Assembly: GCA_030426085.1 (NCBI GenBank)
Contig: JAUHYW010000063.1
Coordinates: 1 to 64,000, forward strand
Direction: 5' to 3'
Length of the DNA: 64,000 nucleotides
Source: a bacterium
GTDB taxonomy: Bacteria; Myxococcota_A; Bradymonadia; UBA7976; UBA1532
Numbering within the stretch: position 1 is the first letter of the stretch; the number at the start of each line of letters is the position of its first letter. Positions 42,301 through 45,300 of this stretch are shown one piece after another. The notes beneath the pieces are model-generated. The model was given only the letters and a program-made list of their open reading frames with translations. It was not told where the DNA came from and made no database searches. Position numbers and translations under genes: made by a program.

Positions 42301-45300
42301 CCGGGCCGCCCGATATGGGCGGTGATCCGGGCTTCGACCGCGACGGTGGGGTGGACCCCGACCCCGACATGCAGGCGCCGGACATGGCGCGGCCCGATCC
42401 CGACATGGCCCCGCCCGCGCCGGACATGGCGCGGCCCGATCCCGACATGGCCCCGCCCGCGCCGGACATGGCCCCGCCCGATCCCGACATGGCCCCGCCG
42501 GAACCCGACGCGGCGCCCGACGCCGCGCCCGCGCCCGACGCCGCCCCCGAGCCGGAGCCCGACGCAGCGCCCGAGCCCGACGCGACGCCCGAGCCCGACC
42601 CCGACCCGGACGTCGGCCTGCCCGACGCCGCCCCCGACCCGGCCGGCGGATCGGCTGCCTCCGAAGGCTGTGACTGCGACGCGGGCGACGGCGCGCCCGA
42701 TCCCATCGGGTGGCTGGCGGTGCTCGCGCTGCTCGGCTGGCGGCGTCGGCGGCTGGCGCTCGGGCTGCTGATCGGCTTGCTGGTCGGGGGCTGCGACGAC
42801 AACGCCGGCTCGACCGGGACCCCGCCCGACATGCCGGCCGTCGACGGCGCGGTCGATGTGGGGCCCATGCCCGACCGCGATCCCATCGCGCCCGACGCCG
42901 CCCCGGACGCGGCGCCCGACGCCGCCCCCGACGCGCGCCTCCCCGACGCCGCGCCCGACATGCGGCCCGTCGACGCCGCCCCGGACGCGGCGCCCGACGC
43001 CGGCCCCGACGTGGCCCCGCCCGACCCCGACATGGCCCCGCCGGACATGCGCCCGCTCGACATGGCGCCGCCCGACCCCGACGTGGCGCCGCCCGACCCC
43101 GACCGCGGGCTGCCCCCGGACGAGATGGACGCCGCGCCCGACCCGGAGCCCGACGCCGATCCCGAGCCCGACGCCGCGGTCGACGCCGCCCCGCCCGAGC
43201 CGGACGCCGCGTGGCCCGCGCCCGAGGGCGCCGGCTTCGGCGAGCCGTGCGGATCGGACGATGACTGCGCCAGCGGCATCTGCCAGATCGGGGTCGACAT
43301 GGCGCTGTGTTCCCGGGCGTGCGATCGCTACGCCTGCCCCGATCAGTGGCGCTGCGAAGAGTACCCCGGCGGCGTCGATGTCTGCGTGCCGGCCCGGGTC
43401 TGCGTCGACCCCGACGGCGACGGCTACGGCGTCGGGCGGAGCTGCCTCGGCCCCGACTGCGCCGAGGGCGACGAGACGGTCAACCCCGGCGCGGCCGAGC
43501 GGTGCAACGGGGCCGACGACGACTGCGACGGGGCCGTCGACGAGGGCCTGCTCAACGCCTGCGGCGGCTGCGGCCCGGTGCCCGGCGAGGCGTGCAATGG
43601 CTTCGACGACGACTGCGACGGGTCGGCCGACGAAGGCACCCTCAACCCGTGCGGCGTCTGCGGCCCGGTGCCCGTCGAGCGCTGCGATGGCTTCGACGAC
43701 GACTGCGACGGGGCCATCGACGAGATCGCGGCCTGCGCGCTCGCCTGCGAGCCGGGCGCCGATCGGCCGTGCTTCGACGCCCACCCCGATCTGCGGGGCG
43801 TCGGCCTGTGCCGCGACGGGGTCCAGACCTGCTTCGGCGCCGACTACGGCCCGTGCCTCGACGCGGTGGGGCCGGCCGACGAGATCTGCAACGCGCTCGA
43901 CGACGACTGCGACGGCGAGGTCGACGAGGGCACCACCAATCGCTGCGGGGTCTGCGGGCCGCTGCCGGTCGAGGTGTGCAACCTCGCCGACGACGACTGC
44001 GACGGCCGGCTCGACGAGGGCATCGCCAACCCCTGCGGCGGCTGTCAGCCGTGCGGTGAGGCGGTGTTCTTCCCCGCCGAGCAGGGCCTGGGCGACCCGG
44101 CGCTGGCGGTGGCCCCCGACGGCGCGATCACCGTGGGCGCCGGCGCGGTGTCCTACGACGCCATCTGGGTGCCCAACAGCAACGAAGACACCCTCAGCCG
44201 CTTCGACACCCGCACCGGGCGCGAGGAGGGCCGCTACTGGGTCGGCGAGAACCCGTCCCGCACCGCGGTCGACCTGGACGGCAACGCCTGGGTCGCCAAC
44301 CGGGGCGATGGCATGGTGACCCACATCTACCATGACATCGCCGACTGCGTGGACCGCGACGGCGACGGGGTCATCCGCACCTCGCGCGATCTCAACGACG
44401 ACGGCCGCATCACCGGGGCCGAGATGGTCGGCACGCTCGACGATCCGATGGCCGACGAGTGCGTGCACTGCCGGGTGCACCTCGGCCGCGACACCGAGTG
44501 GCTGCGGGGGGTGGGGGTCGACGCGGACAACTTCGCCTGGTTCGGCGGCTGGGACTCGCGCCGGGTGTGGAAGGTCGACCCTCGCACCTGCGAGGTGCTC
44601 GTCGAGCTGCCCACCCGGGACTCGGTCTACGGGCTGGTCATCGACGCCGACGGCAACCTCTACACCTCGTCGTACACCGGCGACTGCATCACCCACGTCG
44701 ACACCCGGGCCGGCGAGGTGGTGCGCGAGATCTGCGACTACACCGGCACCCGCTATGGTATCGCGGTGGATGGATTCGGTCACATCTGGTATGGCACCAC
44801 CGGGGACGGCATCGTGCGCTTCGACCCCGCCGCCGACACCTGGACCCACCTCTCGTCCGACGGCGCGGTGAACTACACCGCGGGGCTGGTGGCCGACGGC
44901 CGGGGCGGCATCTACGTGACCGGCTACAACAACGGCCGCATCGCCCGCTTCGACATCGAGGAGGAGACCTGGACCGCGGTCGACGTCAGCCAGGTGCCGC
45001 TGGGCCTGCCCCGCCAGAATACGCCCCGGGGGGTGACCATCGACACCGAGGGCAACGTGTGGGCGATCTGCCGCGAGTCGAGCGGCCTCATCAAGTTCGA
45101 CCCCGAGTTCAACGTGCTCGACAGCGTGGCCATCGTGGGGGCCATCGATCCCACCCGCAGCACCAACCCCTACAGCTACAGCGACAACACCGGGTTCCAG
45201 CTCTTCAACTTCACCGCCCGGGAAGGCATCTGGCATCATCGCTTCGACGCGGGCGCCGACGTGCGCTTCGTGCGGCTGACCTACGCCGCACACACCCCCG

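Follow-up and report, generated by a model that had tools for sequence, protein, structure and literature searches.

Internal sorting tags in described proteins

MYXO-CTERM tails are sorting signals whose helix spans the inner membrane so that its Arg end faces the cytoplasm, and their cleavage by MrtX has been demonstrated experimentally and depends on the Cys motif of the tail (PMC11980579). An extreme C-terminal position is among the criteria for such a tail. Internal tags have been known as single cases. In Myxococcus xanthus, MXAN_5598 is an atypical protein whose MYXO-CTERM lies inside the chain and separates an adhesin from an outer-membrane barrel/OmpA part (PMC11980579); a gene fusion was suggested and processing of its N-terminal part was proposed (Guo, Haft, Wall 2025, PMC11980579), and the protein was found in M. 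xanthus vesicles as ‘OmpA domain protein’ (PMC4158809). HVO_0405 of Haloferax volcanii, the product of two once independent genes that have fused, carries a central tripartite sorting signal that is cut by the archaeosortase ArtA (PMC7157517). TraA and TraB, the outer-membrane-exchange pair, are encoded by overlapping ORFs in myxobacteria (PMC11980579).

In the locus described here, a MYXO-CTERM tail runs in frame into a second signal peptide, and the two hydrophobic helices with the Arg cluster between them are referred to below as the hairpin. The layout of MXAN_5598 recurs in L142 and in several genes of the genome studied; however, MXAN_5598 was described without the requirement of a following signal peptide, while in this genome about 16% of the tails are internal, a lipoprotein class exists and a whole family is conserved. 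HVO_0405 differs in being archaeal, in its protease and signal, and in being a strain-specific fusion. The TraA/TraB pair shows the same order, with a MYXO-CTERM protein first and an OmpA-type protein second, but consists of separate overlapping genes rather than a single frame. L294:2727-6332 (on C44 of the same genome), in which a MopE-repeat protein, a hairpin and a TraB-like OmpA protein follow one another, is, as judged from its sequence, the fused counterpart of that layout; its second half scores 134.8 bits against the TraB model, far under the cut-off of 700.

Two NCBIfam models bear some likeness to the hairpin region, with weak matches only: NF058595 (lipo-invert tail), which covers helix-Arg-helix-Cys and gave 12-21 bits (best 20.9, cut-off 37) in a scan of ten hairpins with flanks, and NF033207 (midcut-by-XrtH), which by name implies a mid-protein cut and reached about 14 bits (14.2, L147; cut-off 45). 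The hairpin of the locus itself matched neither model in that scan. Flavivirus prM/E and the bacterial cytochrome b/c1 precursor FbcH also combine a stop-transfer helix with an internal signal and are cut after export into two proteins; they are unrelated and possess neither a sorting tag with its own protease nor a lipobox. The literature searched contained no description of a general tail-plus-signal junction, although an earlier mention in Haft 2024 (PMC10810001) or Abdul Halim 2017 (PMC5350275) is possible, and nothing relevant under lipo-invert, midcut or internal signal peptide in a polyprotein.

Anatomy of the junction

The window, i.e., the whole stretch of 64,000 nucleotides that was analysed, contains one plus-strand ORF of 5415 codons (33378-49625) that translates without an internal stop. 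Its true start is ATG 33378, with GGAGGA upstream, which confirms the product length of 5415 residues given by an earlier sequence-only reading of this DNA. The features are as follows.

33366-33371, plus strand: Shine-Dalgarno-like GGAGGA 5' of ATG 33378
33378-49625, plus strand: ORF of the predicted polyprotein, 5415 codons plus TGA (49623-49625); same frame in G034, G038 and G056
33378-33464, plus strand: N-terminal Sec signal peptide, from sequence reading; probable signal-peptidase-I site between AAA and Q (inferred)
33900-34394, plus strand: transglutaminase-like domain (PF01841)
38145-38450, plus strand: CARDB domain (PF07705), then a He_PIG Ig-like domain (PF05345)
42663-42752, plus strand: internal MYXO-CTERM tail (TIGR03901 match)
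42666-42677, plus strand: Gly-Cys-Asp-Cys motif, predicted lipidation and myxosortase site (GCxC invariant in four orthologues)
42705-42740, plus strand: hairpin helix 1, a hydrophobic stretch, predicted out to in
42741-42752, plus strand: RRRR, predicted to end the tail on the cytoplasmic side and to act as n-region for the second signal (sequence and hairpin comparison)
42753-42791, plus strand: hairpin helix 2, a hydrophobic stretch, h-region of the lipoprotein signal, predicted in to out
42792-42794, plus strand: lipobox Cys (residue 3139 from ATG 33378; PS00013; invariant in four orthologues), predicted N-terminus of the second product
42792-49622, plus strand: predicted second product, a lipoprotein with D/A/P linker, MopE-type repeats (PF11617), beta-propeller (PF08450) and parallel beta-helix repeats (PF05048, a match below its cut-off)

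The junction reads ...EGCDCDAGDGAPDPIGWLAVLALLGWRRRR-LALGLLIGLLVGG-CDDNAG... and is stop-free, in agreement with the earlier claim that a single frame holds two complete exported proteins, the tail of the first joined to the lipoprotein signal of the second. The tail, which follows a long Asp/Pro linker, is a genuine MYXO-CTERM: it scores 24.4-25.7 bits against TIGR03901 (cut-off 20) and comprises the Cys motif GCDC, the transmembrane helix IGWLAVLALLGW and the Arg cluster RRRR, but 2290 residues lie beyond it, so that it is not at the extreme C-terminus. In the lipoprotein signal directly after it, RRRR supplies the n-region charge, the second hydrophobic stretch the h-region, and the lipobox VGGC, which matches PROSITE pattern PS00013, the Cys; this signal lies at residues 3122-3139, i.e., internally and not at an N-terminus. 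Helix 2 is short, with 13 residues ahead of the Cys, which is a point against the polyprotein model proposed below; h-regions of lipoproteins can be as short as 13 residues.

In the transglutaminase-like domain of the first half, His and Asp are retained, and alignment places Ser at the position of the catalytic Cys in the window gene and Arg, Arg and Ala in the orthologues; the domain is probably a dead enzyme serving as a structural or binding module. Elsewhere in the window, an upstream plus-strand ORF (27711-33305) ending about 70 bases ahead of the gene combines Ser/Thr kinase, AAA, GAF, histidine kinase and receiver domains in one protein, and the glutamate synthase large subunit is encoded at 57578-62182 on the minus strand. 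A minus-strand ORF of 7817 codons (27591-51044), which overlaps the conserved plus-strand gene, was rejected as mechanical; it results from the 74% GC and can mislead gene callers.

Conservation and recurrence of the hairpin

A profile of the second half, run against 57 genomes of the class, recovered three full-length orthologues, G034 and G038 (family f6) and G056 (family f7), with open frames of 5204, 5146 and 5188 codons, respectively. Tail, basic loop and lipobox signal are in frame in all three, and because these genes have 57-71% GC, such open frames do not come free. The sequence-only reading had proposed that relatives with the same uninterrupted frame would argue for an ancient single gene, and this is what was found. 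The four aligned orthologues have Gly-Cys-x-Cys, one Arg, the lipobox Cys and an Asp as invariant columns of the junction, the remainder being variable. The window gene was found in split form neither among the 57 class genomes nor in the genome contigs searched; a free-standing distant relative of its second half (L036, 31%) has its own start and lipoprotein signal, and a distant match to the first half lies in a 964-codon frame (G007:C104). No synteny was found between the window gene and its orthologues, and the neighbourhood therefore gives no clue to its function.

The same junction can be followed within a single genome. TIGR03901 matched 76 tails in the window's genome, and of the 70 that were read, 59 meet a stop within 23 codons, while the other 11 all read straight on into a second signal peptide (three with a lipobox and eight of signal-peptidase-I type). 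The peak 12-residue hydropathy beyond the tail was 1.5-2.8 in the read-on tails versus at most 1.31 (median 0.04) in 53 terminated tails translated past their own stops (p = 1e-7). A MYXO-CTERM tail in this genome is thus either the end of a protein or the start of the next one, with no intermediates, and the orthologues together with this census exclude a chance origin of the window junction.

A core sister family of about 1440 codons with the same junction, present in 43-44 of the 57 class genomes, occurs in both fused and split forms. Of 29 members collected solely through homology to the downstream domain, without use of the hairpin, all 29 are fused and carry the tail Cys, the basic cluster and the lipobox Cys. 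In four further relatives the same pair exists as two genes with both signals retained; in three of them the first stop overlaps the second start as ATGA (RRRAPRSR-stop/MNHRWLPLALGAALAVGALAC, RRRRR-stop/MKRALVLCLALLGC and RRRP-stop/MIPAARRALVALATLTALAALAAC), and in the fourth a short gap leaves the stop of the tail just ahead of the ATG of the lipoprotein. The family tree requires at least three changes between the fused and split states and places the fused copy C5 of the window's genome as sister to a split copy in the genus's other genome. Fusion probably arose when translationally coupled neighbours, the stop of one overlapping the start of the other, came into one frame.

A profile built from four junctions gave many stop-free, full-length matches in the class genomes. 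In 26 genomes we read 44 ORFs with a total of 45 hairpins, a collection gathered partly with a profile that already contained both signals, a bias from which the own-genome census and the 29-member test are free. The ORFs represent about 13 gene-family combinations, in which first-half and second-half clusters pair nearly 1:1. The basic cluster has a net charge of at least +3 in all 45 hairpins and the lipobox pattern is present in 37, while in six further ones the end is of signal-peptidase-I type and an outer-membrane-type protein comes next. The second halves include OmpA, TraB-like and MXAN_2562-like barrel proteins. One ORF, L149, unites an MXAN_2561-family MYXO-CTERM protein with an MXAN_2562-family barrel protein (39.4 and 67.6 bits for a 200-residue piece, below the cut-offs of both families); the locus tags suggest that MXAN_2561 and MXAN_2562 are consecutive separate genes in M. 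xanthus. A 3056-codon ORF, L155:4979-14146 (G044), with FG-GAP and cadherin-like repeats, contains two tail-plus-lipobox hairpins and is predicted to yield three surface proteins from one chain. When the phylum was searched, stop-free matches of nearly full length turned up in about 25 genomes that do not belong to the class; those that were read are real hairpins. The fused junction also occurs in single-contig genomes.

Proposed processing and alternative explanations

We propose, with a probability of about 0.78, that the product of the window gene is a polyprotein, which is cut after export into two cell-surface proteins. The proposal builds on the anatomy, conservation and recurrence of the junction and on the occurrence of the same gene pairs, in the sister family, both as one frame and as two genes; the topology, both cleavages, the surface location and the benefit of a 1:1 stoichiometry are what we infer from them. 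The first part would be exported by Sec via its N-terminal signal peptide, and the MYXO-CTERM helix would act as a stop-transfer, out to in. A lipoprotein signal is oriented oppositely to a MYXO-CTERM helix, with its positive end in the cytoplasm. The Arg cluster would stay cytoplasmic and double as the n-region of the next signal, and the second hydrophobic stretch would re-insert in to out, leading to export of the second part. As tail and lipoprotein signal share this cytoplasmic cluster, both large parts would end up outside, joined by a two-helix hairpin. The two targeting signals, which had been regarded as conflicting, would in this way be compatible. A myxosortase-type CPBP protease may then cut at the Cys motif of the tail, while Lgt and LspA would lipidate and cut at VGGC, with signal peptidase I acting in hairpins with an SPI-type signal. 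The outcome would be two lipid-anchored proteins, made 1:1, and a short hairpin peptide; two released proteins are also what a pair of separate genes yields.

A candidate enzyme for the first cut is encoded in the window's genome, namely an MrtX-like CPBP protein that contains the motifs EExxxR and HxxxN. Across the four genomes, the MrtX homologues reach 97-121 bits (cut-off 180), and the enzyme is best described, on these scores and motifs, as a relative of MrtX and not a certified MrtX. The MrtX-like CPBP proteins L122, L121, L123 and L124 have 374-443 codons versus 238 model positions, with a long insert ahead of the EExxxR core.

A reading frame and two hydrophobic helices would also suffice to build a permanent inner-membrane anchor, in which case the fusion would stay uncleaved and both large domains would sit on one periplasmic chain. 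We consider this unlikely. The cleavage motifs are retained although the hairpin sequence around them drifts, and an anchor would not need them; the pairs of the 1440-codon family also occur as separate genes with both signals. Moreover, many second halves are OmpA, TraB-like or barrel proteins of the outer membrane, which must leave the inner membrane and therefore require release.

Separate production of the lipoprotein by internal initiation at GTG 42720, which the sequence-only reading had offered, is less probable still. This GTG is in frame ahead of the Arg cluster, and the three orthologues have other starts, at non-matching places; however, it has no Shine-Dalgarno-like motif, the first protein would still be stop-less, and six of the 45 hairpins have no in-frame ATG, GTG or TTG in the stretch searched, so that internal initiation was rejected as a general mechanism. 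The same reading had considered one wrong base or a lost stop. The window's genome is a draft of 178 contigs, but a misassembly, a sequencing error or a recently lost stop private to it is ruled out for practical purposes by the same open frame in three orthologues from two other families, and the junction recurs in about 13 gene families, single-contig genomes included.

Beyond the window gene, cleavage of a polyprotein also appears likely as a system across this Gram-negative phylum, in which a reusable hairpin of a tail plus an SPI or SPII signal would allow one ORF to give two, and once three, surface proteins, each with its own anchor, by way of two different intramembrane proteases; the fused and split forms of the genes would interconvert. 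Many hairpin ORFs would offer ready substrates for myxosortase and LspA on one chain, and they point to likely partners of proteins whose function is unknown. In annotation, a signal peptide directly after an internal MYXO-CTERM would be read as a mark of two products, and ‘one giant protein’ would be wrong. If the model is true, the internal sorting tag is a regular route to surface-protein pairs in the phylum, with the partners made 1:1.
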